A DNA stretch of 64,000 bases from Megalonaias nervosa (Eukaryota; Mollusca; Bivalvia; Unionida; Unionidae). Below are positions 14,905 to 56,848 of this stretch, in pieces (within the stretch, counting starts at the first letter, position 1; each line of letters starts with the position of its first letter). A model generated the notes under the pieces. It was not told the DNA's origin and made no database searches. It saw nothing but the letters and a program-made list of their open reading frames with translations. Both the position numbers and the translations under genes were made by a program. The DNA lies in contig JAECUM010096241.1 in NCBI GenBank assembly GCA_016617855.1, positions 39,331 through 103,330 of the forward strand, read 5' to 3'.

Positions 14905-14915
14905 TTTATATTAAA

Positions 14916-15586: not shown

Positions 15587-15616
15587 ATTATAAAAATTGT
15601 TAGACAATAATAAATA

Positions 15617-16874: not shown

Positions 16875-16910
16875 TCATTGTGATCAAATTTAATCTAGTG
16901 CTATAAAATA

Positions 16911-18210: not shown

Positions 18211-18226
18211 AAAAAAAAATTGTATA

Positions 18227-18715: not shown

Positions 18716-18801
18716 AATTTTCTCTAAACTGCTTGATATATAATAATACGACAATCTTAAGCCTGACCTATTTGCCTTGGAGTGTAATACTACTATTAAG
18801 T

Positions 18802-26924: not shown

Positions 26925-27192
26925 TGATGAGTGGTCAGTGAGCTATCAAACTGATGTTTCTAAGTCGCACAAGAAGGAAATTCTTCGTCTAGCCCACGAA
27001 GCTCCTTTGGCTGGTCATTTAGGGGTAATGAGATTGATAATAAGATATTAAATCATTTTTATTTGCCTAAAATTAAAAATGATGTTTGTAAATACTGTAG
27101 ATCTTGTCACACTTGTCAAAGCGTACGAGAACCCAATCTGAAGATACCTATGGCCTGCAACCTATTTCTCCATTTGACGATCCATTTAGTGG
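26925..27192 (+). pseudogene. Gypsy integrase, N-terminal part
   Basis: A zinc-binding H2C2-type domain is visible: HKKEILRLAHEAPLAGHLG in one frame and CKYCRSCHTCQSV in another. The frame reads to the element 2 insertion point and resumes at 42821 without a shift once the duplication is counted once. Confidence 0.7.
27188..27192. repeat. Target site duplication of element 2 (left copy)
   Basis: AGTGG (AGTGGA if the first A of the TIR is counted) recurs at 42821-42825(6). Confidence 0.8.
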
Positions 27193-27450
27193 AGCAGCAG
27201 AGAGGGTGGACCCTACAACTTTTTCCTGACCTTATTTTACAAAAATAAAGGTTCCTACAGGGGCTGAAAAATAAGGTCAATAACGCTAAACCGAACCTCC
27301 TAACTTTTATTATTACCATATAGTTTGAAAAACGGATAATAAATCGTTTGGGTTAGCTCATTTTTGTTATTTTATTTTTGACTTTTGTTATAATGCGTTT
27401 AGTTTACTTACCGGGTCACTCAATTTTTGTCGTCCACCCTCTCTGCTGCT
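27193..27450 (+). repeat. Left TIR of element 2
   Basis: Inverted match to 42563-42820 with only a few differences. Its own two ends are inverted repeats of each other (AGCAGCAGAGAGGGTGGA and TCCACCCTCTCTGCTGCT), so the TIR looks like a small self-contained unit. A diverged relative is the single TIR of element 3 (50305-50546). Confidence 0.95.
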
Positions 27451-27485
27451 ATAAATTAAACAACCATTATAAATATTATTAACAG

Positions 27486-28532
27486 ATGATTATCGGAGAA
27501 CCACATTCAGCTAGATTAGCTCGAGAGCGACTAGAAGCAATTAGAAAATGTCTACCCGTCCGTGATTTAGTTAAACAACAACTACAATCACGTCAGGAGT
27601 CTCAGGTGGAATTTGCAGAAGGTACAGAACAATTATTTAAACCGATTATTGAACCAACAAAGAAAATTGTTACAGCAACTGAGGCAACACAGAAAGCTCT
27701 TGAAACATTGCCTGTTGATATTGCTGGTCGTATTCAAGCAGCTCAACCTGGGGCTCAACCACCACCACAACCACAACCACCAAGAACCATAACTAAGATA
27801 ATGGATAAATTTACACCTGAAGGTATTGCTGCTGTCAGGGATCCAAAAAAATTATTTGATATTGCCGCGTTTGGATATTATGAAAGACAAAAATATGTAA
27901 AACCAGAATATGTTAAATCTCTGAGCTCTACCAATTGGATCAGGGATGTATATCGCATCTCTACTGGTATTCCAGAAATCAGATCTAATGAAGATATTAG
28001 AAGTTTTAACAGATTTGATGAGGCTGTAAATAAATATATAGAAGAGGTTGAACAAAGTAAACGATTATCACCATCATTACCATCATCACCACAACAACCA
28101 CTACCACGACTACAACAACAATCTGAATTACCATCACCACAACGATCACAACGACTACAACAAGAGCTACAACGACGAGAACAAGAACGACAAGAAACAA
28201 TGAAACGATTACAATCACCACGATGACCAGTCCAAACAACAGGTAAGGAAGAAGAAGAAGAATATTGGCCGTCAGACACCTCTTCTGGCGACATAAGTGG
28301 AAGTGGATTTACTACTCATGGAAGTGGCCTTATTACTTGCCCCAATAACGTTCTTGCTGATGTTGATCGACTAGAAATCCTCATTGGAGGAAAACGAGCT
28401 GGTAATAATTCCCCAGAAATCATTAATGAAGCAGCTGATATTTGTAAACGATTATTTACAGGTGGAATTATGGATATTAATGTATATCGATCCCTCATTA
28501 TTGAAATCGCCGATGACTACTATAGTGACTGA
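27486..28532 (+). pseudogene. Coiled-coil structural/scaffold-like protein (element 2)
   Basis: Starts MIIGEPHSARLARERLEAI and runs in one frame to 28532 with a single TGA near 28224. N-terminal charged helix, a FKPIIEPTKKIV block, a Pro/Gln-rich linker (PPPQPQPP), a central folded part (about residues 100-180), a Gln/Arg/Ser-rich low-complexity tract (28060-28220) and a C-terminal helical block SPEIINEAADICKRL. It is the homologue of 13251-14904. First gene after the left TIR. Confidence 0.6.
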
Positions 28533-28563
28533 GTATGTAATTAAATACAGCTACTATAATAAA

Positions 28564-29037
28564 ATGATCGTACATAGTAATCAACGTGGACCAACCATGG
28601 TCAGGGCAGTAAATTCATGATTACCAGTATACAAAACAACCTACGGAGATGGACTAGGCGATATTGTTCAGGGTCTGTTTAGAAGGATAGCCCCAAAAGC
28701 AATACCGATTGCAAAGCAACTGGGGATGAAAGCTATTGATGTTGTTCGTGAAAAAGGTATTGGTACTGTTGGTAATCTCGCTAGTAAAGCGTTTTCAGCG
28801 ATCAAGGATAGACTAACACGATTAATAGGCAGACCTGCGGTCCGACCTCAACCTGTAAAATTACCTAGCACTGAAGTAATGCCTGCAAATATTAGTAAAA
28901 TAATAAATCAAGCTGCTAATCAAAAACTAGCAGAGTTGGCTGATGTACCATTATCAGAAAAAGAAAAAAATATAACCGCTAGTCTGATAGCAGGAAGTGG
29001 TCTCACTTCCCGAAGTGGTCTTCGTTTTAGACGATAA
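28564..29037 (+). pseudogene. Gly/Ala-rich minor capsid protein (pVI-like)
   Basis: ATG at 28564 after ATAATAAA, one in-frame TGA at 28618, then TYGDGLGDIVQGLFRRIAPK and an amphipathic region. It ends with LTSRSGLRFRR. It matches 12092-12454 of element 1 in plan and in position before the capsid gene. A start at 28515 is also possible, overlapping the previous gene. Confidence 0.55.
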
Positions 29038-29051
29038 TAATTATAATAAAG

Positions 29052-30412
29052 ATGTTCAAACGTATATCTGATCCAGCGTTTGACATGGATGCACCAGTAC
29101 TCAAGGATGAGTCTGTGCGTGATTATCAATAGTTCCAAATCAGCCTGGAAGGGTTGAACTTCAGGTTCAAGATACAAGCAGATATTTTCTACCCGCTGAG
29201 GCGTTTATTGAAGTAGAGGGCGAAATTTTAAAAGCTGATAATACTCTATACGCAGTTGAAACGGTTGTTAGTTTTGTTAATAATGGTATTATGGCGTTAT
29301 TTGACAGCGCCACTTATATGATTGATGGTAAAAATATTGAATCAATTCAGAAGGACGTTGATGTTGCTACAACAATATTGGGTCTAGCACGACACAGCGA
29401 TGATTATTCAAGATCAGCTGGTCCATCAATGATGTTTATAAAAGATACTTCTAATTTTCCAGAGCATCAGCAATATGAACTAAGACGACCAAGAAACTTC
29501 GCCAACAACGCTGATGCTGATGTGTGGCCGGTGGTTCATGGTGCTGATCCAGATTTCAACATAGGATTTAGATCACGTCGAGCGATATTAAAAGGTAATA
29601 GAAGAATGTTTTCATGCGCAATTCCACTGTCACATATCTTTGGATTCTGTAGAAATGTCAGAAAGGTTATTTTCGGAGCTAAACATACAGTTGTACTTGT
29701 ACGAAAAGGCACTGACGATGATGCAATATGGCGACCCGCTGGTACTGATCCTGGTAAAGGAATTCTTACAAAACTTTCATTGTGGATGCCAGTGATAACT
29801 CCATCAATATCTGAAGAAGGCCGGTTGCTATCTTTTATGAGTCAAGGTGGTAAATCAACGTTGTCATGGTTGACTACGACAACAGATTCTTTTCAAAGTA
29901 ACATTAATGGTTTATTTACTTGGCAAATAGCTTCTCAGCAAGGTGTTTCTGCACCGCGACATATATTTATTGCATTACAAGATGCTGCACGAGTAAACTC
30001 ACAAAATCTTAGTATTATGATATTTGACGATCTTGGTGTTTCTGAGATTTCGTTAAGAATAAATGGACATCAAGAACCATCTGAGGATATATTACTGAAT
30101 TTCGATCAAAATCATGTAGCACGTGTATATCATCGTCTTATGTCGTTTATGGGGCGTGATCAGAACATTGATACTGGTTTACAAATATCACAGTTAGATT
30201 TTACAACCTTATATCCGATTTATTACTTTTCGCTGGAACATTTAGATTTAACCAGACAATCAGTAGTCGATATACATTTTCGAGCTCGCGTAAACCAAGG
30301 AGTTATCGCTAATTACAGAGCTGTCGCTGTTATACTTAGCGATAAATCGATGTTACTTGAAGATGTTGGTGGACGAATGAGAGTTATTGATGCTCCAGTA
30401 GAAAACATGTAA
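29052..30412 (+). pseudogene. Major capsid protein (element 2)
   Basis: About 453 codons. One frameshift near 29130 separates a 26-codon start from the long open frame, which continues FLPAEAFIEVEGEILKA and contains HSDDYSRSAGPSMMF, CAIPLSHIFGFCRNVRKV, LTKLSLWMPVITPSI and FTTLYPIYYFSLEH, then ends RVIDAPVENM. It aligns with element 1 (10524-12059) and element 3 (55267-56525). The hexon-like capsid building block. Apart from the early shift it looks intact. Confidence 0.8.
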
Positions 30413-30450
30413 TTAGATCACCTTGATTTAAAATCAGGATAATAATTATA

Positions 30451-30887
30451 ATGTCATATCATCACGCTAGTGTTACCCTGACTCCTGGTCAGATTAAAAG
30501 GCTACAATCAGCATCAAAAAATAACTGTGGAATAAAAATATCGCTAAAAAAGAACAGATGAGCGGTTCAAATAAATTATCGTTGACCGAGCGTCAATTCA
30601 GAAACTTCAATGAAGCTAAAAAATCAAATAAAGGTATAAAACTTAATCTTTCTGCAGGAGCTATCAAAGATGCTGTTAAGACAGGTGGTATATTTCCACT
30701 TCTCGCAGCTATACCAGCATTAATAGCCGCTGCAGCCCCAGCTGTTGCAAAAGCAGCTGCATTAGGCGCTGTTGGAACCGCTGCTGGAATGGCATTAAAG
30801 AAAGCAACCGGACAGGGAATCAAAAAAAAAGGGAAAAGGTCTAAGACTTCCCGGGACCCCATATTCATGGTACGGAAAGGGTTTTAG
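30451..30887 (+). pseudogene. Minor capsid-like protein, in frame with the protease
   Basis: From the ATG at 30451 (MSYHHASVTLTPGQIKRL, after ATTATA), a frameshift in an A run near 30548, then LTERQFRNFNEAKKSNKG and a hydrophobic Ala segment (LLAAIPALIAAAAPAVAKAAAL). It ends in a basic 14-residue repeat whose first copy reads RSKTSRDPIFMVRKG. The following protease frame is the same frame, separated only by one TAG at 30885-30887. Confidence 0.65.
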
Positions 30888-30942
30888 ACTTCCCGGGACC
30901 CCATATTCATGGTACGGAAAGGGTCTAAGACTTCCCGGGACA
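30838..30942 (+). repeat. In-frame 42-bp tandem repeat between minor capsid and protease
   Basis: About 2.4 copies with period exactly 42 bp (14 codons): AAGACTTCCCGGGACCCCAT recurs. The element 3 gene has a diverged version (RSKTARNPSFMVR, then RSKTALDASLN), so the unit is older than either copy. Confidence 0.85.
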
Positions 30943-31373
30943 GTTTACTGATATCGCCTATGTCCAATTTTGATTTACTTAATGCTGCTAAAAAACTAAA
31001 ACTAAAAAACTTCAGAGGTGTTTTTATGCGCGATCAATTACCAAAACAACCGAATAATATTGAAACTGGTATTATTAATCTCGATAAAAACTCTGGACCT
31101 GGCACGCATTGGGTTGGATATGCAATTGATCCACGTGGAATTATTTACTTTGATTCATATGGATTAGTGCCACCTAAGGAATTTCTTCATTATGTCAGCA
31201 ATAATATTGCTCCAGTTTGGTATTCAACGTTACCAACACAAACACTAGCTGATCCACCAATATGTGGTCGTGAAGTACTTAATGTACTTGATGCTATATC
31301 AAAATCAACAAAACCACCTCATAAAGTCGTGCATGAATATACCACATTGTCACATTTAAACGGATACTTATAA
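30888..31373 (+). CDS. Adenain-like cysteine protease (element 2)
   Basis: His in GPGTHWVGYA, Asp in YFDSYGLVPP, Gln in PTQTLADPP and Cys in ICGREVLNVL are in the adenain order. The open frame includes repeat copies (MVRKGSKTSRDS) before a Met that begins SNFDLLNAAKKLK. The in-frame TAG at 30885 may be a mutation, with an internal start at 30909 or 30963. It would cleave capsid precursors. The fiber gene begins 5 bp after its stop. Confidence 0.8.
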   Translation, partial: TSRDPIFMVRKGSKTSRDSLLISPMSNFDLLNAAKKLKLKNFRGVFMRDQLPKQPNNIETGIINLDKNSGPGTHWVGYAIDPRGIIYFDSYGLVPPKEFLHYVSNNIAPVWYSTLPTQTLADPPICGREVLNVLDAISKSTKPPHKVVHEYTTLSHLNGYL

Positions 31374-31378
31374 ATATA

Positions 31379-32479
31379 ATGGTAGATAATTACGGAAGAT
31401 CTCGCAAAGCTCAGAAGCAAGTTGATTTATCTAAATACGTAACTCTTGATCAACTCAGAAATGAGATTGACGATTTATTAAATATTACAAGTGTGGATCA
31501 AAATGAAGTCGTTGTTTTTCAGGATAAACAAGGACGATTAAAAACGAATAACATACAACTGACAGATGTACTCGTACGAATTCCTACCGCAGTTGTTGAT
31601 AATATCGTTATTTTCTCCGATCAGGGTAAAATACAAGATTCTGGTAAGTCAGTTAACGATTTTATCAAGCGAGCTGGTGATTCATTCAGGGGTAGCATTA
31701 TTATGAATCGAAATAAAATTATAGACCTTGGAAATCCAACCGTAGATACAGACGCCGCAACAAAAAAATATGTCGATGATCAAGAATCTAAGTACGTGTT
31801 AGTTAACGGTGGTATAATGCGTGCATTTCTCAACATGAATAATAATGGTATTAATAATCTTAGAACACCAGAATCTGATTTTGACGCTGCAACGAAGAAA
31901 TATGTAGACGATAGCAACATTCCTACGACAACTTCGCTAAAAACAATCAATGACGAAATGACCACACTCAATGGTACTTTTACTAAACACGTGGAAACGT
32001 TTTTAAATTTTCGTAGAAACATAAACAAACCCATAAAAGATTTTTTTGGTGATCCACCAACCGTTAACATAAAACTAGCCGACGTTAACATGAAACTCAA
32101 TGATATTGTTAGTGGAATACCTAATATTGTTCAAAAAACTAATCTGATTAAAATCCTTCACAATCAGATCGTCAATGTCGTGTACACAGTAGTATCAGGA
32201 TTAACAACATGGTCACAGCAAAATAACACTATTAGATATACCGCGAATGTTACTGGTGTATATAGACTGTCTATCTTTAGCTCTGCAAAGTTTAAAATTT
32301 ATACTACAACATTTCCATGGCGTCATTCAGCCGATGCTTTCTCTGGAGTTGTATCTATAGTGTTAAATAAAGATGCTGAAGAAATATTTTTACTGGAAGC
32401 AGATGATCGAACAATAACCGCAACGTCTTACTGGTGGTGTTTGGAATTTGTAGCTGGAACACCACAATTAGTCACTTAA
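31379..32479 (+). CDS. Fiber-like protein (element 2)
   Basis: 366-aa intact frame after AAATATA. N-terminal anchor (residues 1-90, with DQNEVVVFQDKQGRL), then two phage-tail-type repeats (IIMNRNKIIDLGNPTVDTDAATKKYVDD and LNMNNNGINNL ... FDAATKKYVDD), a helical linker and a beta-rich head from about residue 255 (TTWSQQNNTIRYTANVTGVYRL ...). The head does not resemble the discoidin-like head of element 1. Probably the attachment fiber. It overlaps nothing and has neighbours 5 and 10 bp away. Confidence 0.7.
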   Translation: MVDNYGRSRKAQKQVDLSKYVTLDQLRNEIDDLLNITSVDQNEVVVFQDKQGRLKTNNIQLTDVLVRIPTAVVDNIVIFSDQGKIQDSGKSVNDFIKRAGDSFRGSIIMNRNKIIDLGNPTVDTDAATKKYVDDQESKYVLVNGGIMRAFLNMNNNGINNLRTPESDFDAATKKYVDDSNIPTTTSLKTINDEMTTLNGTFTKHVETFLNFRRNINKPIKDFFGDPPTVNIKLADVNMKLNDIVSGIPNIVQKTNLIKILHNQIVNVVYTVVSGLTTWSQQNNTIRYTANVTGVYRLSIFSSAKFKIYTTTFPWRHSADAFSGVVSIVLNKDAEEIFLLEADDRTITATSYWWCLEFVAGTPQLVT

Positions 32480-32489
32480 TATAACAATA

Positions 32490-33026
32490 ATGGATCAACC
32501 TCAGTCTCGCATCGACGTTCAACGTTACAGATACAATCAAGTATATGAACGTCTGTCTAAACTAAAGGATTTTATTAATTATTATAACATAAAAATAAAA
32601 AAATACAAAAGGCGTATAGTTGTCATCGATGTAGTTGTTTACTCAGTTTCTGCTGTTATTGCTGGAACAGGATTATTATTATCAACATTGACGATGACAG
32701 CACCTGTTGTTATAACCATCATTGTTTCAGCATCAACGACTATTGCTGGTGTTCTCGGTATTATAGCTAAAAAGATAGATACCTGTACAAATGTTAAATT
32801 GCACGATTATATGATTAAATTACATACAGTAACAGAGGCATGTTCTAAACTATCCTTGTATATTTCTTCATGCGTTAGTGATGGTGAAATATCCGATACT
32901 GAATTTGCGATGATGATGAAAACCTATGATGATGCGCTTAAGGTGACCGCTAATGATTTTGACGAATTAAATAATAACGATAATAATAATGACAGACAGG
33001 GAATTACTTCAGCAGATCGTCACTAA
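32490..33026 (+). CDS. 2TM protein (element 2)
   Basis: 178 aa, intact. Helical N-terminus (IDVQRYRYNQVYERLSK), two adjacent hydrophobic segments (about residues 50-95), then IIAKKIDTCTNVKLHDYM and a tail SDGEISDTEFAMMMKTYDD that resembles an EF-hand-like or short acidic loop. Element 3 has the same protein with NDGMISDQEFAEM. It is conserved next to the fiber and penton genes; it may be a membrane-embedded virion or assembly protein, but no function is known to me. Confidence 0.6.
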   Translation: MDQPQSRIDVQRYRYNQVYERLSKLKDFINYYNIKIKKYKRRIVVIDVVVYSVSAVIAGTGLLLSTLTMTAPVVITIIVSASTTIAGVLGIIAKKIDTCTNVKLHDYMIKLHTVTEACSKLSLYISSCVSDGEISDTEFAMMMKTYDDALKVTANDFDELNNNDNNNDRQGITSADRH

Positions 33027-34467
33027 TACAACTCCGTCAAAAACTACAATGGTTTAATTAAGTTCTACTAATCCTGAATTTAGCATTAACTTTCCAACCG
33101 CAATTCCTGCAAAAGAAATAGCATTAGCACAGTTACGGGTTTATCATAGCTGGCCTAATATTAGATCAAAACCATTTGGTGGACTACAGCCAGATAATTC
33201 ATTAGTATTCGCAAATAAGAATAAACCTGATGGAACTCCTGATTGGCAAGTAGTTAGTATTCCAACTGGCAGTTGTCAGATAGATCAGATCAACGATGAA
33301 TTCCAACGCAGAATTAAATCCATTACAGAAAAAGAATCCAAAATAGCGATTACTGCTTACGAACCAACATTATCAGCGGCGATTGAAATAAATTCCCCTG
33401 ATTATCTCGTAGACATTTATCAGAGTTCGATTAGATCAGTATTAGGATGGCCTGATATTCCACCGGTTTATAATGGAATTTCAGAACCAACCAAAAATGA
33501 ATTTCTCACAACGGAAAAAATATTTATAAACCTTCCAGAATATCGAAAAAAACAACCATGGTCTTATATATTATTTGAATTTGATCCAAACGACGACAGA
33601 TATTACTTTACTGATTTTGACGGTCGAAGGACTCCCAAGATGAATAGATCAGCATTTAATGCTATCATCGTAGACGCCAGGACGCAGACTACTAGAGATA
33701 TTGTTGATGAAAAATTTTTTAAAAGATTTTTAGATACTCTTAAAACCGAATACGATAAAACACTTAATGATTTAAGAAATTTATTTATTTTATTATCTCA
33801 ACGTTATAACGATGATGTAAAAAATCAGATAATCGTGTCAATAAAACATTTAAATAGGATCCTATTTGATTTATACATCGCCAATCGAAGTATTATAAAC
33901 TTTGTGATTAAACTCGATGGAAATCCTTACACATCTCCAGAACTTAAGCAATTATTTCTTAATCATTACAAAATAACAGAAAAAGACTTACAAACATTTA
34001 TAATTCCCGGATTTAACTCTGAAGAGCTAAAGAAATCATTAACTGATCTTATTGAAGAATATTATCCGGGAGTAATTGATTCATGGAGAAAAACCCCACC
34101 ACTGGTTATTCTTAAACATAACAACGATCCATACGGTGGAGGTCGTCATATATCGCCAGGCGTTGTTAATATAACATCAACGATCGCAGTCAATCTAGTA
34201 TGTGATGTAATTGATGGCAGTTATCAAGTAGACCTTGAGAAATCTAACCACCGCAGTGGCACTGCGGAGCAAGGTTATGTGTTATATGCATTTAGTCCTC
34301 AAGCTCCGCCTGGGTGGTTAATTGTATCTGAACCAATTAACCTCGTTTATCTACGTTTACATAATCCATTATTGTCGAGAATAAATTTCAAACTTACTGA
34401 CCAGTCTGGACACATTTTGGATCTACGAGGAGAGAATCTTAATATTAATCTGTATATACACTCGTAG
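32989..34467 (+). pseudogene. Penton-like protein with large internal insertion
   Basis: About 492 codons, overlapping the 2TM gene by 38 bp (ATG at 32989), with one in-frame TAA near 33055. The ends match the 247-aa penton of element 1: N-terminal FSINFPTAIPAKE, C-terminal YAFSPQAPPGWL and FKLTDQSGHILDLRGE. Between them lies a ~170-residue mostly helical insert (33640-34130) absent from element 1 and present in element 3. The insert could be an extra vertex domain. Confidence 0.65.
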
Positions 34468-35135
34468 AGTTGTCGTATTTACGCACCAACACTGTTTGTT
34501 TAGCGAATAAATTCTTTTGCAATTCAGAAAATATTATAGATCTGAGAAAATTTGCTTGTTTTATGTTATTTTTGCTTGTTTTATGTTATTTAGTCAGATT
34601 TCTTGCTCCGTGAGGGTCTAAATCATCACAACATTTGTAACACCTGGCAGGTCTCTATATACATTTCTCTCAAAACGCAGATAAAAATTATTTTTTTCAC
34701 TGTAATGAAGCGCGATAACTCTGCTCTGTCTCTCTGTCAAACGATTATCTCCCTTGTAATACATGTTATCTGTAATCGAGGTATTTCAGTCCCCGTACGG
34801 ACACGATATATATCGTTTTTCGTTAATTATTTAGTGATCTATCTTCTCTTTGTAAGAATCGCTGTTAGTGAAGCAGCAATTTGTAACAGAGAGGGATATT
34901 AATGCATCTTTTGACTCTAATAACCTTAAATTCACGTCAGTTTTATATACCAAGTAACGTAGAGTTATTTTTAGTTCTAACGTACTTTGACCTTAACGAA
35001 CGTTAACTCCATACGTGCGATTATTTTATTAATTTTGAAAAACTGAAGTAAATTCACGTTACATTAGTGATACAAATCCTGTGAGACAGCGCAAATATTT
35101 TATATACTTAAATTTAACTGTGTTATTGATAAGAG

Positions 35136-35170
35136 AGCGATGGCCGAAGTGGTAAGACGGTTGGACGTAG
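35136..35170 (+). repeat. tRNA-Ser-like 5' half
   Basis: GAGCGATGGCCGAAGTGGTA followed by AGACGGTTGGAC matches the acceptor/D-arm of tRNA-Ser genes with A-box. No anticodon arm or B-box follows, so it is a fragment or a retroposed tRNA head. Confidence 0.5.
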
Positions 35171-35238
35171 ATCGAAGTTTTGCAGACTCTCGCGTGTGCC
35201 GTCTGTATGTAGAGATAAGTTTATATGTAACTAAAGTG

Positions 35239-35530
35239 CCCAGTAATTTTCCACTGAGGTCAAATGGACAGTTAATCAGTGCCAGTAATTTTCCACTGAG
35301 GTCAAATGGACAGTCAACCAGTACCCAGTGATTTTCCACTGAGGTCAGATGGATAGTTAATCAGTGCCAGAAATTTTCCATTGAGGTCAAATGGACAGTT
35401 AATCAGTGTCCAGTAATTTTCCATTGAGGTCAAATGGACAGTTAATCAGTGTCCAGTAATTTTCCATTGAGGTCAAATGGACGGTTAATCATTACCCAGT
35501 AATTTTCCATTGAGGTCAGATGGATAGTGC
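35239..35530 (+). repeat. 43-bp tandem repeat, about 7 copies
   Basis: Unit CCAGTAATTTTCCACTGAGG followed by TCAAATGGACAGTTAATCAGTG. Copies drift at a few sites (CCATTGAGG in the last four). It lies in the element's non-coding centre. Confidence 0.9.
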
Positions 35531-35656
35531 CGTCCAAAATCATAAACCATCTGTATATATTTCATAACCATATATCACACAAAAACAGCCCCCTGACAAA
35601 AAAAAAGTCATGGGTGGCTAATATTTTTTTATTTTAAATATATAAATATATATATA

Positions 35657-36094
35657 ATGAACCATGAAAACATCAATGATATTATCTGTGCTATTAAAAA
35701 ACTAAAACATAACGGAATAAAAATATCTGATAATCTCGACCCTCATAAAATTATGTGCGATTTTGAATCACTGCAACAGAGAAAATTTGATAATAAATAT
35801 ACACTACCTTCAAACTACAGATTTATAAAATTAATATATCAATCTATGCTTGAATCACTAGCTATGGTAAACGATGATCAGGTAAAGCTATTTGCACCTC
35901 TTGCACAGTCAATAGAAAAGGTTAAATCCGAACTATCTCACGAGTACGAAAGAAAAAAGATCCTGGATAATCGTATAATGCAATTAAGAAAGATTATGCT
36001 ATCTGATTCTGTCAATAATGACGCTGAGAGCAGCGACGGTGAAGGTGGACCCTTGACTGTAATTATGGCTAAACAAAAGTCCTGGCAAAACTGA
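35657..36094 (+). CDS. Hypothetical helical protein (element 2)
   Basis: 145 aa from MNHENINDIICAIKKL, its ATG preceded by TATATATATA. Polar, helix-rich, with a coiled-coil-like middle (SELSHEYERKKILDNRIMQL) and an acidic C-terminus (NNDAESSDGEGG). No recognised family. It begins the replication half of the element. Confidence 0.45.
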   Translation: MNHENINDIICAIKKLKHNGIKISDNLDPHKIMCDFESLQQRKFDNKYTLPSNYRFIKLIYQSMLESLAMVNDDQVKLFAPLAQSIEKVKSELSHEYERKKILDNRIMQLRKIMLSDSVNNDAESSDGEGGPLTVIMAKQKSWQN

Positions 36095-36156
36095 CAGTCG
36101 AACTATATAGAGTAATTCTGTTTTTGTTTTGAAGAGTTATTTGACGTATTTAAATA

Positions 36157-36633
36157 TTACCCGCTGATTATATATTTTCGAAAATGCAGATTTGTACATT
36201 TTACAGCTGCAAATTGTACCGATCGTGGACGTATATCAAAATATCTGGCAGCTGCGTTTATTGATGGGAAAGTTATTTCTTGGTCTGTTTCTATATTTAT
36301 GGATATAACAGACCTCGGGATCTTGGGATATTTACCAGTATTTCCACGTGCAGTATTCTCTCTCTGTGTAATAGCCTGCAGGTTAGATAACCGATTATTC
36401 TTGGGATTTCCATCAATGTGATCAACTACAAATCCGTCTTTAATCAATCCAAAATAACACTCAAAAATGAACCTATGAAATAAATATCTATTTCCCCCAG
36501 CACTGAATCTAAAATAACCAGTATTATTAAGACTACCGACTGGTTTTTTTAATCGACAGTTTCTGATAGTGCCATCACGAGACGCTTCATAATTGGTGAT
36601 GATTGGATGCTTCACAAATTCATTTTGCTCCAT
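36157..36633 (-). CDS. HNH homing-endonuclease-like gene (element 2)
   Basis: 158-aa intact frame. NUMOD4-like ITNYEASRDGTIRN...KPVGSLNNTGYF, HNH core HRFIFECYFGLI ... VVDHIDGNPKNNRLSNLQ..ITQREN, and a C-terminal NUMOD1-like DNA-binding segment (INAAARYFDI). It is freestanding, opposed to its plus-strand neighbours, and in the same place (beside the polymerase) as the element 1 gene at 6412. Probably a selfish nuclease; it may also act in element mobility. Its ATG follows AGTATATAA. Confidence 0.8.
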   Translation of the reverse strand: MEQNEFVKHPIITNYEASRDGTIRNCRLKKPVGSLNNTGYFRFSAGGNRYLFHRFIFECYFGLIKDGFVVDHIDGNPKNNRLSNLQAITQRENTARGNTGKYPKIPRSVISINIETDQEITFPSINAAARYFDIRPRSVQFAAVKCTNLHFRKYIISG

Positions 36634-36662
36634 TTATATACTAATACTATTTGTCTAAATTA

Positions 36663-36950
36663 TTATTTTGAAAATCTAGCGAGATAATCTTCTTCAGTTT
36701 TTATAGGAGATTTACCATTTTTTTTGTCATAATAACGTTTTAATTCTCTATATTTTTTACCGCCGCATTTTACACATAACTGAGTTTTTCCTCTGACTCC
36801 AACACCACACTGAATACACGGTTTTGGTCCAAGACTTCCATATCTAACACATTGCATATGGTAGCTACAGAATTCATTCACGCATGCTCTGTTACAAGGA
36901 GAAGTATGTCCAATTTTAAGCCAGTGGCAGTAATTCTTTGTTTCAATCAT
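36663..36950 (-). CDS. Cys-rich zinc-binding protein
   Basis: 95 aa starting MIETKNYCHWLKIGH, ATG after TATATATA. Cysteine/His spacing (CNRACVNEFCSYHMQC, CIQCGVG, CVKCGG) suggests two zinc knuckles, and a basic KKYRELKRYYDKK tail follows. The frame is intact. Function is unknown; DNA- or RNA-binding is plausible. It diverges from the polymerase gene, with 44 bp between their start codons. Confidence 0.55.
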   Translation of the reverse strand: MIETKNYCHWLKIGHTSPCNRACVNEFCSYHMQCVRYGSLGPKPCIQCGVGVRGKTQLCVKCGGKKYRELKRYYDKKNGKSPIKTEEDYLARFSK

Positions 36951-36994
36951 TATATATACACTAAAAATTCAATTTAAATATTTGTTTTAATTAT

Positions 36995-39900
36995 ATGGAG
37001 GAATTATCCATGATTGAACCTTCCCCTGCTAGATTTGACCTTGACAGACTACCAGAATATAAATTTAGTATTTCGATGCAGGATCTAGCTTTAACGAATG
37101 AAGATATAACAGAACGTATCCGTGATGCCAAGAAGGAATTTCGTGACGATAGTGCTGCTCATGTATGGTCAACGTTCAGAGTTGGAAATGTTTTCAATAT
37201 GATGAATGACGAACGAGGAAAAGTAATTATTAACCACCTTGATAATCAAAAATATTTTATTTTAATAAAATTTATTGTAAACACAGATGATGATATCTGG
37301 ATTATTCGTGATAAGCGTGATCCAGTACGTGTGCAGTCGGGAAGCAATATTGTTCTCTTAAATAACAGATCCAAGCCCGGAATACTTACTGGTATTGATA
37401 AGCCATATTATGAGCGAGGGTATCCTGTGACCGCAGTTGTATATGCAATATATCCGCTGAATGATAAACCTGATGTTAAGAATCTTAAACCGATGAAACT
37501 GTCGAGAATAAACTGTGTAGCTGAACGAGTTACAGAACATTTTACAAATGCGATACGTGGTAATGGCCTGACAGATTTAAGACGTAAAAAAATAAACACA
37601 TGGGCAGAAACAGTTAAAGATACCGGAGCGTCTATCAAAGATGTCGCTGAGCTAGAAAAGAAATTAAGATTTCCAATAACAGTGAAGACGTTAACCGGAG
37701 AGATTTTATATAAACCAAAATACATAAAAAATGGAGCTCCGATAGACATAGTCGATCATAATTCGCATGCGTGGACCTCAGCAGTAACAATATTTCCACG
37801 AGATAGAACGGTTAAATTTTATGATGGTCATATACTTGATTTTATCAAAAATATCAGTAAAAGTGACCCTGTATCTGTGTGGTTATTTCAAAGTTCAGAA
37901 TACGAACATTACGATCAGTTTGTACGGCCTAATGGTAATATTTACCGTACAGAATCTCTTCATGAAGAAATGGAACATCTTGCGCTGAAATATGCTTCAG
38001 ACGATGTCAAAGTTGGACAATTATTAAATAATTGTTTTACCGTTTCATCAGTAGCTGCCCATTTCGCTCAGGAGAAAAATTCATGGAAACCGACACGATC
38101 GGAATTTCTTGAAGATGTCCAGAACACTTGTATGGAATATGGACACGGTGGATTATGGAATACCAAATACAACTATAGTGACGTTATCTCTGTTGATATG
38201 GCAGCGTGTTATCCTGGAAGTTTTCTTGGATATGGGGAATGTTCTAGATACTTTAAGAGATTTGGACATATCCATCACACGAGATGACCAAGGTTTCGAT
38301 AAACGGATCCCTACCAGATTTTGATTTAACAGGATTTGCGTGTGTAGAATCATTCGAGTTTGCACAAAATCTTCATCCTATCAACTATATTTGGTTTGGA
38401 AGACATTTTTCAGAGAAGTACTGGGTACCGATAGTGCTGTTGAGGTATATGCTTGATGCTGGAATTTTAATATCGTTAAGAGTAACTGAAGCGATTATAT
38501 CATATCGTCCGCAGAAGCAAGTTTGGTTACCAGAGCCTGTTGATGATGCCAGGAAAGAATTCCTTGATCTTGACGAAGATGACTGTAAATGCAGGGACGA
38601 TGAAAAACTTGTAAAAGATCTTGGTAGAAAGATAATCGGCAAGTTCACTCAAGGTAGTTCATACGATTATAAACGACACTGTACAAGATTGATTATGGAC
38701 GATGCTGAGTTAGATTTTATAATCGCTGATACAACGGAAAAAGGTACATTTGTAAACCGATGTAGTGCCTATTTATCAGATGAAACCAAACTAGGTACGA
38801 TTGTGAGTTATATTGATGGCGATTCACCGCAGTTCACTCATTTAAGATCTTCGATGTTGGCTTATGTTTCAATAAATCTATTGTCGATGATAAACAGATT
38901 TCCTAATGATGCTGTTAGAGTTGCTACGGATTCATTTTATATACATAAAAAGTATAAGAATTTATTAAAACCGCTGCTTGGTAATGGTGAATGGGGAACA
39001 TGGAGAATAAAACAAGAGAATATACTTAGCTATTCTGAATCTGCAGACGTTGAAATTATGGAGAAATATTACAAAAATAATAATCAAGCATCAAAGTCAT
39101 CTGCACCATCTGTATACGACCCTGTAGCTAGACATAAGACTGTTTATCTTAACGGATGCGGTGGTTCAGGCAAAACAACTCGTGCGATTAACTTATTTAT
39201 GAATAATAGTTCAGATATAATTGTTTTGACACCTACACATAAATTAGCCAGGAAATAAAAGAGCGAGGAGTAAAATCATGTACATACCATAGTTTCTTTA
39301 GATGGTGCGGAGACACATGGACTCCTGAGAGAATGGGTGAAAAATATATACCTAAGTATATTATATGGGACGAGATATGCACGGTGTCGTTAGAAGTATT
39401 AAAAGTATTTCTTGAGTGGTTGTTATTAAAGAATACTGCTGTGATAATGTGTGGTGATCATGGTCAACCACCACCTTTTATTGGACAATCTCCACATGAA
39501 TGGCTGAAGAATAACGTAGATTATTATGAAGAAATAAATGATGACCGTAGAGCCATTGATGAACCGCTGAAGGAGTTTAAAAGATTAATCAGACTGCAGC
39601 CAGATAAAATACAATGTGAAATAATGCGAGGAGTAATTCCAGAAACTACGATGAGTGATTTTTTGATTTTATGGAGACCCGCTGATTTGATAGTCGCAAG
39701 TAGAAAGATAGTTCGTGATGAACTACAGGAAAATTATTTCTGTTACATAAAGAAAAGTTTTCAGATCTACCTGTACCTTTGTGTTATCGCCCAGCAGATA
39801 CTCGACGACAGAATATCGAAGTGGAAATTCCTGGTGTATCGGTGGAACCAAAGGTACAGAATCTCGTCTTGAATGATATTGTTTTGGTTGCTATTGATGT

Positions 39901-40467
39901 TGTTGAATGCGCATTGAATATGGATAAATCTCCATGGACGTTAGGATATGCTATAACGATCCACTCATCTCAAGGATTAACTATTTCTGATAAAAATATC
40001 TGGATTGTAGATGATCGGATTGAATGGTCGAATTTAGTCTATCTTGCAGTTTCTCGAGTCAGAAGAATATCTCAACTACATAGGGTTATTATAGATTACG
40101 TGATAACTGAGGAAATCACTAATGACACTGCTGCAATAAAGAAAAATTAGCGGGTTATAAGCAATGTGACAAAAAAAATAAGCGTGACTTTGATATTGAT
40201 GCTGAATTTATTATAACGCTAAAACAACGACAGAATAATGATTGTGCAAGCTGTAACTGTAAGATGCTATGGCAGTATTCGAATAATAATCCAAGACAAT
40301 TTACCGTAGATAGAATTAATAGCGATCTAGGTCACACACGTGATAATGTGATGCTGACCTGTCTTGAATGCAATCGACGTAGAGGTTCTGGTTATGTAAT
40401 TGTATGTGGTGGTAATTGTGTACCCGCAGGAATTACTTGTAATTGTTCGCGTACAAATCCACGCTGA
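36995..40467 (+). pseudogene. DNA polymerase - SF1 helicase - HNH nuclease fusion
   Basis: Four consecutive frames read as one protein, separated by frameshifts near 38282, 39251, 39740 and 40140. Polymerase part: motif A-like ISVDMAACYPGSFLG, motif B-like RKIIGKFTQG, motif C-like VRVATDSFYIHK. I see no clear exonuclease motifs. Helicase part (39150-40130): Walker A GCGGSGKTTRAI, Walker B YIIWDE, GDHGQPPPF, TIHSSQGLT and AVSRVRRISQ, typical of SF1 (RecD/PIF1-like). HNH part (40240-40403): CASCNCKM, FTVDRINSDLGHTRDNVMLT and CLECNRRRG. The 3' end overlaps the opposing integrase gene by ~75 bp. The whole would combine copying, unwinding and cutting. Confidence 0.75.
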
Positions 40468-41368
40468 GGGGCTGTAGAATCTAATCTGTAGATTGCAGGT
40501 CTTCCAGTGGATCTAACTATGTCAGAAATTGTATGTGTAGTAACGCTCCAGATAGGATCGGTTGCTCTTTTTTTACCACCCTCAAGTTCCCCAGGCTCAT
40601 ATAAATATCTTACAGTTACATTACCTAATACCGGTCGAGGTTGTTGTTTATCGCTACGGGTTATATATTTTTTTGTAATCGCATTAGAAGGTTTCATGGA
40701 AGTTGCACGAGTAATTTCATTATTTAGCGTAGATATCACACCTGGTAATCTTGCAACCCATTCACGAGATCGCTCACCGGATTTAAAGTTAGTAGATATT
40801 TCCTTTGCGTATTGGTATCCAAATAACCGCTCAGCAAGTGTTCTATTAAATCGTTCAACGATTGCCTGATCACGATGAATTTCAGTATGTCCTCGTCTGA
40901 TTTTAACGTTATGTTGCTTCATCAATGATGATACTGTACCAAGAAATTCTTTACCAGGATCAACCTGTAATAATTGTGGCCATCGCAAAGGTCCTCGCTG
41001 ATAAATTCGCTCGAACGCAGATGCAACTTCAGATGCTGTCTTTGTTGATAATGGTTCCGCTTCTTTATATCTACTGCAACGTCAACGACAGTCAATGCGT
41101 ATTTGTACGTGCGTGATTTTCGTCCACGTGTTTTAATAGTATCGTGCGGTAAAAATAAAATATCTGCTTGATGAACTTCATTAGGGACGCTGACATCAAA
41201 ATGTGCGTATTGAATTTTTTTAGGTGGTGGTAGATAAATCTGCCATATTGCCTGTCGTGCTAACCACGCTGCAGCGACATTACGTGAGACTTTTGCTGCT
41301 TCGGAAAGTTTAGTAATAGCTGCTTTGCCTCTCCAATATCCTCTCGAGGAATAATAAACAGATTCCAT
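40392..41368 (-). pseudogene. Retroviral-type DDE integrase (element 2)
   Basis: Starts MESVYYSSRGYWRGKAA after TAATATA. The first Asp is in HQADILFLP. A 1-base frameshift near 41077 follows. The later frame has LQVDPGKEFLG (second Asp) and AIVERFNRTLAERLFG (Glu), so all three catalytic acids are kept. C-terminal part with VRYLYEPGELEGGKKRATDPIWSV and PQRGFVREQLQVIP is typical of the Maverick integrase lineage that was first noticed in nematode transposon-derived proteins. It lacks the PLA2 and chromodomain of element 1. Confidence 0.85.
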
Positions 41369-41384
41369 TATATTAGTTATATAA

Positions 41385-41884
41385 TTAATTACCAGCCCCT
41401 AGCATTATTTTACTTTTCATAGCAGTTTTTACTAGAAAACTAGCGAGTTTTTCTCTGAGAGATTTATTAGGTATAGAATTTAACGCATGAATCAATTTCA
41501 CATCTGCGAGATATCGTTGTTGTAAATCCTTACTTTTATACGCAACATCATGAACATGACACGCTTGATCAATCTTATTTACTGGATGCTCTCCTGTTCT
41601 TGGTTGATCTTGATCATCAAGTCGGATATCAAGTCGGGTTCCAGGACCACAATAATTATATCCAGGAAGATGTTTCTCACCAGGGTATTTAGCCCATGGG
41701 GTTCCTGGTAATTTCCCTAATGAAGCGGCTATATCTCCACCATCTTTGATGAAATAAATTTATATTTTTTTGTACCACATTTTACACATTTACCTGTAAT
41801 TGCACGTCTTTTATTTTTTGTTGTTATTGTCATTAATCCAGTGGTATCGGTAGGTGCTCTGCATCGAACACAATATAGACTCAT
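41385..41884 (-). pseudogene. Zinc ribbon - PLA2 protein
   Basis: Starts MSLYCVRCRAPTDTTG with CxxC pairs (CVRC, CVKC). A frameshift near 41745 separates it from a parvovirus-type PLA2 domain with YNYCGPGTRLD (calcium loop) and ACHVHDVAY (catalytic His/Asp), then a helical end. In element 3 the ribbon and the PLA2 lie in one frame, so this was one gene. Likely a membrane-penetration factor carried in the virion, by analogy with parvovirus VP1. Confidence 0.75.
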
Positions 41885-41896
41885 GTTATTTATTAT

Positions 41897-42556
41897 ATGG
41901 ATATAATTGATTTTTCAGCGACACGAAAACAAGAACCAGTAAAGCACCATCCAGCATTACCAAATTCTATTAGAATGATTATAATAGGTCCATCTGGATC
42001 TGGTAAAACGCAATTGCTGCTTAATCTAATAATGCGATGGCTCAAGTGGGATAGGTTATATTTGGTAGCACCATCTGTAGATGATCAGTGGTGTTATGGG
42101 GTACTTAAAGATTTTAATGAAAATGCAAAGATACTGGATAATGATGTTATTGATTTTATTACCGATATCGATGAGGCACCATCCGTAGATGATCTAGATG
42201 GACTTATTAATAATTTAGTAGTGTACGATGATGTTATGCTGGATAAACAATCGAATCCAGCTAGAATATTTTCTCGAGGTAGACATAAAAATACTGATGT
42301 GATTTATGTTACACAACGATACACGCAGATACCTAAGGTAATTAGAGATAACTGTAATATTTTAGCTGTATTTAATGGAGTAGATAATTATACCCTGCAA
42401 AATATTTATTATACTTGGTGTTCAGGGGACATGGACATGATTAAATTTAAAAACTTATTTTCAAAATCACAAGCTGTTCCGTTCGGATTTATAACGATAA
42501 ATCTACATGACCCAAGATCAAGATATCGTGTAGGTCTGGATAAAATCTTTGGTTAA
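41897..42556 (+). CDS. Packaging ATPase (element 2)
   Basis: 219-aa intact frame from MDIIDFSATRKQ. Walker A GPSGSGKTQLLLN, Walker B LVVYDDVM, then RGRHKNTDVIYVTQRY, which is the sensor-like Gln region of A32/HerA-type ATPases. Ends 6 bp before the right TIR. Start codons of this gene and the zinc-ribbon gene are head to head only 12 bp apart. Confidence 0.85.
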   Translation: MDIIDFSATRKQEPVKHHPALPNSIRMIIIGPSGSGKTQLLLNLIMRWLKWDRLYLVAPSVDDQWCYGVLKDFNENAKILDNDVIDFITDIDEAPSVDDLDGLINNLVVYDDVMLDKQSNPARIFSRGRHKNTDVIYVTQRYTQIPKVIRDNCNILAVFNGVDNYTLQNIYYTWCSGDMDMIKFKNLFSKSQAVPFGFITINLHDPRSRYRVGLDKIFG

Positions 42557-42562
42557 TTTTAT

Positions 42563-42820
42563 AGCAGCAGAGAGGGTGGACGACAAAAATTGAGTGACCC
42601 GGTAAGTAAACTAAACGCATTATAACAAAAGTCAAAAATAAAATAACAAAAATGAGCTAACCCAAACGATTTATTATCCGTTTTTCAAACTATATGGCAA
42701 TAATAAAAGTTAGGAGGTTCTGTTTAGCGTTATTGACCTTATTTTTCAGCCCCTGTAGGAACCTTTATTTTTGTAAAATAAGGTCAGGAAAAAGTTGTAG
42801 GGTCCGCCCTCTCTGCTGCT
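42563..42820 (-). repeat. Right TIR of element 2
   Basis: Inverted copy of 27193-27450 with a handful of substitutions; it also begins and ends with the AGCAGCAGAGAGGG / CTCTCTGCTGCT pair. Confidence 0.95.
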
Positions 42821-43660
42821 AGTGGAATAATGATAGACTGTGTCGTTTTCGGTCTCTTACCTAAGACCAAGTCAGGCAACCAATATTTGTTACTCATAAT
42901 CCTCTGAGGGATTTTAAAACTAAAACCATAGTAAACGTTTTGATAAAGTTTTGTTTATACAATTTGGCCCCAAATCTGGCCAGTCTGATCAGGATTCAAA
43001 TTTCATGTGGAATTTTCTATCAAATCATGCATGAATTAGGAATCCAGCAATTTAGATCTTCTGCTTATCATCCTGAAAGTCAAAGGGCTTTCGAAAGAGT
43101 TCATCAAACTTTTAAAAATATTATTCGGTCATATTGCTTTGATACCGGAAAAGATTGGGAAAAGGGTGTTCATTTAGTGTTGCTTGCTGTTAGGGAATCA
43201 GTTCAAGAATCATTAGGATTTAGTCCTTTGGAACTAGTTTTTGGACATACTGTCCGTGGATCATTGAAGTTATTAAAAGAGAAACTTCTTTCAACTGAAG
43301 ATTCAGATTCAGTCTTCTTGACTATGCTTCTGATTTCAAATATAAGTTGTTCAAGGCGTTTGAAGTAGTTAGAACTAAATTTCACTCTTTCATTCAAAAA
43401 TGAAATTAAGGCATGACAAAAATACAAGGGAATGGAATTTTCAGCCTGGTGATAGACTTCTGGCTCTCAGTACTATCGTTCTTACACAGTTGAAAAGAAA
43501 GTAAATGACTTAAATTATATTATTAACACTCCTGGGAGTCGAAGACAAAAACAACTTTCCCAAATAAATATGTCGAAGGAGATTGAGATAGCCATGTTAA
43601 TCATGCAGTCAATATAGTTGTACCTGACCCAGTCAGTGAGGATTTGCGTGATGGAATGAA
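42821..43660 (+). pseudogene. Gypsy integrase, catalytic part
   Basis: From the insertion site it reads GIMIDCVVFGLLPKTKSGNQ (first Asp), then in another frame SSAYHPESQRAFERVHQTFK (Glu in FERVHQ) and ESLGFSPLELVFGHTVRG, then a PGDRLLAL and KVNDLNYIINTPG tail. Several stops. Confidence 0.75.
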
Positions 43661-50304: not shown

Positions 50305-50546
50305 AGCAGCAGGAAGGGTGAACAGACCACTTTTCAGAGAAGTTCATTTTTGAAAATAAAGCTTCCTACAAAATTTGAAAATACAAGGTCAATAACGTTA
50401 AACCGAGACTTCTAACCGACCGAGACATTTAACTGGGTTAGCTCACTTTTGTTATTTCATCTTCTGACGCCTGTATTTTCAAATTTGTATGCGTCCTCAT
50501 TTACCGACCTGGGACACTCACTGTTGGTCGTCCCCTTTCTGCTGCT
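50305..50546 (+). repeat. TIR of element 3
   Basis: Diverged copy of the element 2 TIR: starts AGCAGCAGGAAGGGTG, ends CTTTCTGCTGCT and shares the AAGGTCAATAACGTTAAACCG and GGGTTAGCTCA blocks. Confidence 0.85.
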
Positions 50547-50553
50547 GTCTCTC

Positions 50554-50855
50554 TCAACCAAAAATTGTATCGTTGATGTCGGTGATAAAATCGATAATAT
50601 CATTACCGTCCTCGTCCAACAATTCTGCATTTTCATTAAAATCTTTAAGCACGTCGTAGCATCGCTGATCATCTACAGATGGTGCCCTAGATACAACTTA
50701 TCCCACTTGAGCCATCTCATTATCAAGTTAAGCAACAATTGCGTCTTACCAGACCCAGATGGACCTACGATAATTGCTCTGATAGAATTTGGTTGCTCTG
50801 GCTGATGTTTGATTGGCTCTTGCTTTCGTGTCGCTGAGAAATCAATGACATTCAT
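50554..50855 (-). pseudogene. Packaging ATPase with internal deletion (element 3)
   Basis: Starts MNVIDFSATRKQEP, has Walker A GPSGSGKTQLLLN, a frameshift near 50690, then runs to IIDFITDIND and joins directly to the final IFG residues before the stop. The C-terminal half, including Walker B, is deleted while the start and stop ends are kept. Confidence 0.75.
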
Positions 50856-50856
50856 G

Positions 50857-51270
50857 TTGTGTTCGATGCAGAGCACCCACCCCCACCGGTGGATTAAAAA
50901 CAATAACGAGGAATAAAATGTTGCACTTACAGGCAAGTGTGTGAAATGTGGTACAAGCAAATACAGATTTATCTCTCATGAAACAAACGGAGATATCTCT
51001 GGTTCACTGGGAAAATTATCCGGAGCTCCATGGGCTATGTATCCTGTCGAAAAGCATCATCCTGGATATAATTATTGTGGTCCTGGAACCCGACTTGATA
51101 TTCGACTTAACGAGAATATCAACCAAGACATGGAGAGTATATATTAAATGCGATTAATCAAGAGTGCCACGTTCATGATGTCGCGTATAAAATTCCAGAT
51201 CTACAACAACGACATATTGCAGACGTGAAGTTGATTCACAGTTTAATGTCTGTAAAATATAAATTTCTCA
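50857..51270 (+). pseudogene. Zinc ribbon - PLA2 remnant (element 3)
   Basis: GKCVKCGTSKYRF of the ribbon reads in the same frame into the PLA2 calcium loop YNYCGPGTRLD, supporting the view that both form one protein. HVHDVAY of the catalytic site follows in a shifted frame. The start codon was lost in a small deletion next to the ATPase start. Truncated at about 51270. Confidence 0.7.
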
Positions 51271-51276
51271 GAGAAT

Positions 51277-51575
51277 CGCTTATTATAATATTTATCCAGA
51301 ATCAGATTATAATATTTATGCAGAATCAGATTATAATATTTATTCAGAATCAGATTATAATATTTATTCAGAATCAGATTATAATATTTATGCAGAATCA
51401 GATTATAATATTTATTCAGAATCAGATTATAATATTTATTCAGGATCAGATTATAATATTTATTCAGATTGTAATATTTTTTTTTATTCTGATTATAATA
51501 TTTATTCAGATTATAATATTTATTTTTATTTTGATTATAATATTCATTTTTTTTCAGATTAGAATATTTATTTTA
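51277..51575 (+). repeat. AT-rich tandem repeat at internal deletion
   Basis: A unit close to ATCAGATTATAATATTTATT repeats about twelve times with drift. It sits where polymerase, integrase and HNH genes are missing compared with element 2. Confidence 0.85.
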
Positions 51576-51669
51576 TGTTGAAGATCTACGACCTCGGCGT
51601 TTTACAAACGCGAAGTTCTACGAACTCACGAACGCGAACTCACGAACGCGAAGATCTTACGATGACGCT

Positions 51670-53043
51670 CTATGAGCGTACATGCAAACTTATTTTAAGA
51701 GATTCATCTCGCAAATTAAGAAGGTGTCAATTTTGGTCAGTAAGTCTGAAATGCGTCCGTGATAATAGCGGATTATGACATCTCAGATAAACCGGATTAA
51801 CAGGTACTGACATAATTAAAAATCCATGCGGAGCTTCAGGGGTGAGTAAATATAGGATATATCCTTGCCGTGCCTGTCTGGATTTTTCAAGATCTACTTG
51901 ATAACTGCCATCGATTGCATCACACACCAGACTGACTGTGATTGTTGGTGTGATATTGACAATACCTGGTGATATATGACGACCACCGCCGTCTGGATCA
52001 TTGTTATGCTTGAGAATACTCGGAGGAGGGGATATTTTCCTCCATGCTTTAAAATATTCATCGATGATATCGTTGGCGTCGGCGAAGTTAAATCCTTGCA
52101 TTATGAATTTTGGTAATTCTGCTTCTGTGATCGCGTAGTGTGTAATAAACAACATTATTAAATGTCGTTGTCTTCTTATCCGGTGGAAGATCGATGAATT
52201 CATCTCCAGTAACAATCGTTGCTTCAATAATAATCCAATTGACATTTTTTTAGGTCGGATACAACTTGATCTAGATGTTGTTTCGTTTCAATGAGTTGCT
52301 GCTTTAGATCGTTGTTTGGATATTCTCGTATGTAACTTTGAAACAACTGACGCAGTTTGCTGCGTATACGCGTGTGTTCAAGCGTAATAGCTTCAACGTA
52401 CGAATTAATATATTTTTCGTCGATGATTGACTTGTTATTATCATCATAATCATAGAAAGCTTTAGATGGCTTTGGAAGTTTTGTACCATTGCTCGCAGTA
52501 AAAATTATTTTTCAGGATATAATAGCGACCCGTCAGCGCTTATTCTTTTGGGTCGATCCATCCATTTCCTTGGATGAGTTTTCGATACTCTGGAAGGGAA
52601 GAAAATATTCTTTTGTCTGAAACGTAATCAGACCGTTGAGGCTGTGGTGGTACTGAAGGTGTTGGTGGTGGCGCTTCTGGCCATCCTAACACAATTCGGA
52701 TCGATGATTAATATGTATCTACGCTGTAGTCAGACGTTGATATTTCAATGGCGGCTGATAACGTTGGCTAATGAACCGTGATAGCGATTTTGGATTCTTT
52801 TCCTGTGATAGATTTAATCCTGCGTTGGAATTCACTATTGATCTGTTCTATTTCATAACTGCCCGTAGGAATACCAACAACTTGCCAGATTTATTTTTAT
52901 ACGCAAATACCAATGAATTATTTGGCTGGAATTACCATTGGAAAACTAACGTCAAACTCAGGCTTGGTTGAGCTCTCTGATATCATCGTGGTTGCTGGTG
53001 GTGTTGTATTAGCGACGATTAGTTCTAGCAGTTCTTGCGACAT
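51670..53043 (-). pseudogene. Penton-like protein remnant (element 3)
   Basis: Starts MSQELLELIVANTTPP, matching 32989 of element 2, and ends with FRLTDQN then a stop and NLRDESLKISL. The helical insert is present. Many stops and frameshifts. Confidence 0.65.
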
Positions 53044-53085
53044 TATTATTTAAGTCCTGATTTTAAATGTCGGAGACGGCAGCGT

Positions 53086-53583
53086 CTATAGACTTCGACT
53101 GTCCTTGTCGGAGACGGCGGTGTCTGGATTTCCAGTTGCTTCATGGTAAACCTTAATCATTTCTGCGAATTCCTGATCTGATATCATTCCATCATTGGGC
53201 CCTGATGATATCAGCGATGATAATGTGGCGTGCGCGTGTGTTGCCGCTGATTGAAACGTTGTATATTCATGTAATTTATCAGCCGCACAAGTATATATCT
53301 TTTTTGCGATGATATTAAGAATACCAGCAACACCGGTTATAACTGCAACACCAATTCCTATTGCTGGTGCTATTATGTACGTGGCTGATAATGATCCAAT
53401 TATAGTTGCTGTTCCAGCGACTACCGCGGATGCAGAATATACAATTATGTCAGTAACAGCAACACGTCTGCGGTATTTTTTTAGTTTTACTGTATACGCA
53501 TCAATGATAATTTTCAGTTGGGTCTGCCACAAACACACTTGCTCGTAACGCTTGAAATGTTGAACTTCAATCGATTGGTTCAT
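53086..53583 (-). CDS. 2TM protein (element 3)
   Basis: About 165 codons open from MNQSIEVQHFKRYEQ (ATG after TTTATATAA). Hydrophobic hairpin, IIAKKIYTCAADKLHEY and the NDGMISDQEFAEMIKVY tail match element 2. The upstream fiber frame runs into it. Confidence 0.6.
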   Translation of the reverse strand: MNQSIEVQHFKRYEQVCLWQTQLKIIIDAYTVKLKKYRRRVAVTDIIVYSASAVVAGTATIIGSLSATYIIAPAIGIGVAVITGVAGILNIIAKKIYTCAADKLHEYTTFQSAATHAHATLSSLISSGPNDGMISDQEFAEMIKVYHEATGNPDTAVSDKDSRSL

Positions 53584-53589
53584 TATATA

Positions 53590-54322: not shown

Positions 54323-54328
54323 TGTATA

Positions 54329-55222: not shown

Positions 55223-55266
55223 TATAATATCATGAGCGATTTAATTACTGATCACGAGTGATCCAG

Positions 55267-56525: not shown

Positions 56526-56848
56526 AAAAGTATAAGTAGCTCTGTCTACCATTTAACACTTAATTCAGCTCTTGCAGCAGGTTAAAACATGCGTTTTTGA
56601 AGAAGCTGTTTAACATGTTAATAGATTCGCCAACAAAACTAAATATGGTAGAACTTATAAAGTTATCAAGATTTTTAAGGACAGTATCTGATAGATAATC
56701 TAGGAGCAAAAGAGATACAACCAGACAAGATAATCAAATAAAATAAAATGAGTGCTAGTCGTCGATCTAATGATAATTACATTTTAATGTTAACAAGTAA
56801 ACCAATGGGATGTATGGGGAAACCTAAGTAAACAAAGTAATAAATCTG

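Follow-up and report, generated by a model that had tools for sequence, protein, structure and literature searches.

A polymerase–helicase–HNH gene in a Polinton-type element of the bivalve Megalonaias nervosa, apparently of the published pPolB-S1H kind

The stretch of Megalonaias nervosa DNA analyzed here (64,000 nucleotides of contig JAECUM010096241.1; hereafter the window) contains three virus-like elements. The second, element 2 (27193-42820), carries a gene in which polymerase, superfamily 1 (SF1) helicase and HNH nuclease domains follow one another. All the motifs quoted for these three domains in the original prediction were found, in order and on the plus strand. Four frames had been counted, but the window copy is broken by four frame shifts into five, all shifted in the same direction (frames 2, 1, 0, 2, 1), which adjoin without visible gaps, as the prediction had held. 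The first open stretch runs from 36965 to 38287. The front of the gene, from the Met start at 36995 to about 38200, had been absent from the prediction and comprises an N-terminal region and a protease-like region with conserved Cys and His. The frames are as follows.

36995-38287 (from the Met start), plus strand: frame 1, N-terminal domain, Cys/His protease-like (vOTU-like) region and palm motif A (evidence: open reading frame (ORF), relatives, Cys/His conservation)
38257-39258, plus strand: frame 2, palm motifs B and C and helicase Walker A (ORF, relatives)
39243-39872, plus strand: frame 3, helicase motifs II and III (AAA_19, E-value 0.001, short of the cut-off; relatives)
39722-40150, plus strand: frame 4, helicase motifs V and VI (PHROG Dda-like helicase, E 2.8e-5; relatives)
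40126-40467, plus strand: frame 5, C-terminal HNH, endonuclease VII-like (PHROG endonuclease VII, E 3.4e-11; relatives)

When searched separately by tblastn, the five pieces aligned one after another along a single intact relative, P0057 (57-73% identity), and the second piece alone matched 56 proteins at E ≤ 0.01, the mussel Sinanodonta woodiana among them. Chance or misread motifs are ruled out by these two results. The claim that the parts form one gene held up in the species' own assembly (2.19 Gb, 54,709 contigs), in which at least 121 places match the second piece (121 of 20,888 first-look candidates were scored). By hand count, 9 of the 121 listed copies have a single open frame of at least 1140 amino acids over polymerase, helicase and HNH, with no stop reported, and 36 have a reported stop inside the 333-amino-acid second piece. 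Twelve stretches chosen for long frames were fetched; nine hold a single ORF of 1142-1174 amino acids, and three hold 1013-1079 amino acids. Outside this genome, 15 proteins match an intact own-genome ORF, 10 of them spanning at least 89% of such a frame, and an own-genome copy used as query found P0057-P0060 as its best matches. Intact relatives encoding the three parts as separate genes, which had been named as evidence against a single gene, did not turn up among the relatives examined.

A search with residues 400-1060 of P0057 scored 7,994 candidates and gave 74 matches at E ≤ 0.1. They include a EukProt entry, the sea slug Elysia crispata, and proteins of the mycorrhizal fungi Diversispora, Gigaspora, Rhizophagus, Cetraspora, Racocetra and Ambispora. 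No relative came from the genome contigs of bacteria and archaea. In IMG/VR virus contigs, two single pieces found no match and alignment A5 found one distant, helicase-only match (24%). Relatives P0033-P0035, P0038, P0045, P0046, P0051 and P0053 are filed under metagenome-assembled genomes of ‘Candidatus Thiodiazotropha’, a clam symbiont; they are probably host DNA in bacterial bins. The midpoint-rooted tree took the 69 of 75 aligned rows that cover 400 or more residues of the region, leaving out the other six and the own-genome copies. All 17 fungal rows retained fall in one clade (100/100), three Elysia proteins lie within another, and P0057-P0060 are set apart (100/100). P0130 and P0104 sit on long branches. 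P0130 (1727 amino acids) is only distantly related: its palm precedes the helicase as in the others, the HNH residues are absent, and its long C-terminal extension has no Pfam match.

All parts of the fused protein are under selection. The ratio of nonsynonymous to synonymous substitution rates (dN/dS) was 0.18-0.40 over the 36 pairs of nine open own-genome copies, with third positions varying most, and the means of the five protein parts were 0.19-0.26. These copies were picked for open frames, a bias against stops and not directly toward low dN/dS.

The gene lies in an element that has the marks of a Polinton/Maverick: terminal repeats, a short target duplication, a double jelly-roll (DJR) capsid protein, a packaging ATPase and an rve integrase. 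Its other features are listed below.

27193-27461, no strand: left terminal inverted repeat, a 269-nucleotide arm 98% complementary to 42552-42820
29123-30412, plus strand: DJR major capsid protein (PF21738, E 6.7e-19)
30888-31373, plus strand: adenovirus-type protease (PF00770, E 0.017, short of the cut-off)
36157-36633, minus strand: separate HNH_3/NUMOD endonuclease gene upstream of the fused gene (PF13392, E 1e-15)
40392-41398, minus strand: rve-type integrase, in two frames in the window copy (PF00665, E 0.024, short of the cut-off)
41385-41759, minus strand: phospholipase A2-like (PLA2-like) protein (PF08398, E 4.6e-13)
41879-42556, plus strand: A32-type genome-packaging ATPase (PF04665, E 1.7e-12)
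42552-42820, no strand: right terminal inverted repeat, pairing with the left arm

The target site duplication is 5-6 bp, with TAGTGG outside the left end (27187-27192) and AGTGG at 42821-42825; counted from 42820, the right flank also reads TAGTGG. The protease matches an ORF of element 1 (9527-10081) at E 9e-14, this ORF itself reaching PF00770 at E 0.0022, short of the cut-off. The integrase matches the rve ORF of element 1 (PF00665, E 9.3e-12) at E 5e-11. Downstream of the fused gene, the integrase, PLA2-like and ATPase genes were present in all 12 fetched copies; the upstream HNH_3 gene and the 36663 ORF were present in 11, the twelfth beginning at a contig end. A 42-43 bp unit is repeated in tandem about seven times at 35235-35532, directly upstream of the 35597 ORF.

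Element 1 (1743-19383) is likewise of Polinton type; it has inverted repeats of 581 nucleotides (95%), a DJR capsid gene, an rve+PLA2 ORF and an Endonuclease_7 ORF at 4797-5375 on the minus strand. Element 3 (50416-56545) is related to element 2 but inverted and diverged (matches of 74-87%); it has capsid remains, and tblastn with P0057 and P0061 found no replicase in it. Elsewhere in the assembly, COX1 occurs twice on contig C2306, 16,026 bases apart, so that the assembly may go round the mitochondrial circle more than once. The COX1 frame continues through TGA and has 11 in-frame AGA/AGG codons in its open stretch, which fits the invertebrate mitochondrial code (AGG assumed to be Ser) and disfavours the standard and vertebrate mitochondrial codes.

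The same genome also encodes the canonical protein-primed family B polymerase (pPolB) of Polintons. Scoring of 75 candidates with PF03175 produced 150 matches, roughly two to a gene, and the open frames reach 1408 amino acids. The pPolB ORFs of four own-genome loci (L033-L036) had no match in element 2 at E 1e-3, and canonical pPolB ORFs matched element 1 weakly at 4545-4862. Compared with the fusions P0057 and P0061, the L034 ORF gave no E-value below 2.3. That the fusion is itself a canonical pPolB is ruled out by this lack of similarity above noise, together with the lack of a Pfam match for the pieces.

We consider it very probable that the gene is a pPolB-S1H fusion (‘Tlr1-like helicase’) of about 1,160 amino acids, and that its product is the element's own replicase, taking the role that a stand-alone pPolB has in ordinary Polintons. 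With the same high confidence, its predicted parts are, in order, an N-terminal domain, a vOTU-like cysteine protease, a protein-primed family B palm without recognised exonuclease, a Pif1-like SF1 helicase and an HNH nuclease. As in pPolB-S1H proteins, palm and SF1 helicase share one open frame, palm first, and the C-terminal nuclease is of one of the two types of that family (GIY-YIG or HNH). The palm was scored as protein-primed family B type. Ahead of it, the Cys of the protease-like region is kept in 50 of 50 rows with a letter and the His in 51 of 52. No exonuclease was seen, either as a Pfam family (window pieces and A5 relatives) or, by eye, as a conserved acidic triad in A5, yet the structure alignment of the fusion with phi29 begins at phi29 residue 55. 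The best BFVD structure match, over the whole length, is the unnamed H6WBE3, which we presume may be a transpoviron protein; TvV-S1 M4QM65 ranks 46th.

Several results weigh against this identification. Pfam and PHROGs gave no polymerase family for any of the five window pieces, and no family at all for the two polymerase pieces; Pfam gave none for a polymerase in nine relatives of A5 either. PDB sequence searches found no match for piece 2 and helicases only for profile A6. No OTU structure matched the fusion in the structure comparison, and the whole-length model is modest (pLDDT 64, pTM 0.35). VIA-align on the P0057 model listed helicases, a listing in which the absence of other folds is uninformative. 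The comparison with the Tlr1 protein is by its published description. Finally, motif C begins with A, T, V or M instead of D in all 71 rows that have a letter there; this missing Asp is the main doubt on polymerase activity.

The role of the HNH end could be read differently, as a homing-endonuclease passenger at the end of the protein that takes no part in replication. The accessible text of PMC11071308 reads the GIY-YIG and HNH ends of such proteins as intein-type invasions, and a free HNH_3 gene adjoins the fused gene. However, an intein would lie between two halves, whereas this HNH forms the end of the protein, and selection on it is about as strong as on palm and helicase. Mollusc, fungal and unnamed members alike retain its His (51 of 52 rows) and three of its Cys (49 of 53, 50 of 52 and 50 of 51). 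A passenger is possible, if somewhat doubtful.

A catalytically dead palm appears unlikely. In that case the palm would have a structural role in a helicase-nuclease, and element 2 would borrow a polymerase from the host or from ordinary Polintons, whose pPolB genes with long open frames are indeed at hand in this genome. The invariable loss of the motif C Asp agrees with this, and the title of Krupovic et al. 2016 reportedly calls the fusion ‘inactivated’. On the other hand, the motif A Asp, the motif B Gly-Lys and the last Asp of motif C are nearly invariant in the aligned relatives, and mean dN/dS is lower for the palm than for any of the other four parts. PMC11071308, in its accessible text, also notes that this Asp is missing from active polymerases. 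That the gene is a host gene or a wholly dead fossil, its protein free of selection, is very improbable: few listed copies are open and many carry a stop, but dN/dS is about 0.2 among the nine open copies (chosen for openness), the viral neighbour genes are constant in the fetched copies, and element 2 keeps its terminal repeats and target duplication. Separate neighbouring genes joined in appearance by assembly errors, a reading that the five gapless frames of the window copy might suggest, can practically be dismissed because single open frames exist in own-genome copies and in unrelated data sets.

For the pPolB-S1H fusion, the earlier suggestion of a one-protein replicase is consistent with fold and conservation; the enzymatic steps, and the protease and primer roles, are inferred. 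On the model of the pPolB-S1H account in PMC11071308 (accessible text), the N-terminal domain would prime at the terminal repeats and the protease would release it. The palm would then extend while the fused helicase opens the strand ahead, giving strand-displacement synthesis without proofreading, and the HNH would cleave branched or joined intermediates. More speculatively, these elements may form an ancient Polinton branch of their own in animals and arbuscular mycorrhizal fungi. Their replisome would be a single chain made up of primer domain, protease, a polymerase without proofreading, helicase and an integral HNH that resolves ends or branches, and they would coexist and perhaps compete with ordinary pPolB Polintons in the same genome.

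Importantly, one genome here holds two Polinton replication genes side by side, and the 75 aligned relatives allow the contested palm to be tested, along with the protease-like region and the HNH. Element 2 shares with canonical Polintons/Mavericks the terminal repeats, 5-6 bp target duplication, DJR capsid, packaging ATPase, rve integrase and protease, and differs in having no match to the canonical pPolB found elsewhere in its genome. Mavirus and bidnavirus-type pPolB gave weak BFVD structure matches (ranks 43 and 44); they lack a fused SF1 helicase or HNH, and mavirus has a separate SF3 helicase gene (PMC11071308, accessible text). The OmPLV helicase SF1-pPolB of Oxyrrhis marina is likewise one long gene of an endogenous element, mostly split into several ORFs, but has the helicase first and a full exonuclease, and is an independent fusion according to the accessible text of PMC12721341.

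The combination had been thought undescribed. It is unusual for Polintons proper, but the accessible text of PMC11071308 describes the same fusion, ending in either HNH or GIY-YIG, in polinton-like viruses, the Tlr1 element and transpovirons. The architecture found here equals the published pPolB-S1H with an HNH end. Common to both are the order of N-terminal domain, putative vOTU-like region, palm apparently devoid of exonuclease, SF1 helicase and C-terminal homing-type nuclease, and a motif C without the first Asp; the Tlr1 element, like element 2, also has an rve integrase. Our literature search found no account of the fusion in molluscs or mycorrhizal fungi, although it may have been mentioned in animals before. 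The fused gene is real and, by its architecture, of the published kind, in a setting that appears to be new. The carriers named in the accessible text of PMC11071308 are a ciliate, algal viruses, metagenomic polinton-like viruses and mimivirus-linked transpovirons, whereas those found here are mollusc and arbuscular mycorrhizal fungal genomes, which widens the range of this replicase beyond the protist and giant-virus world.
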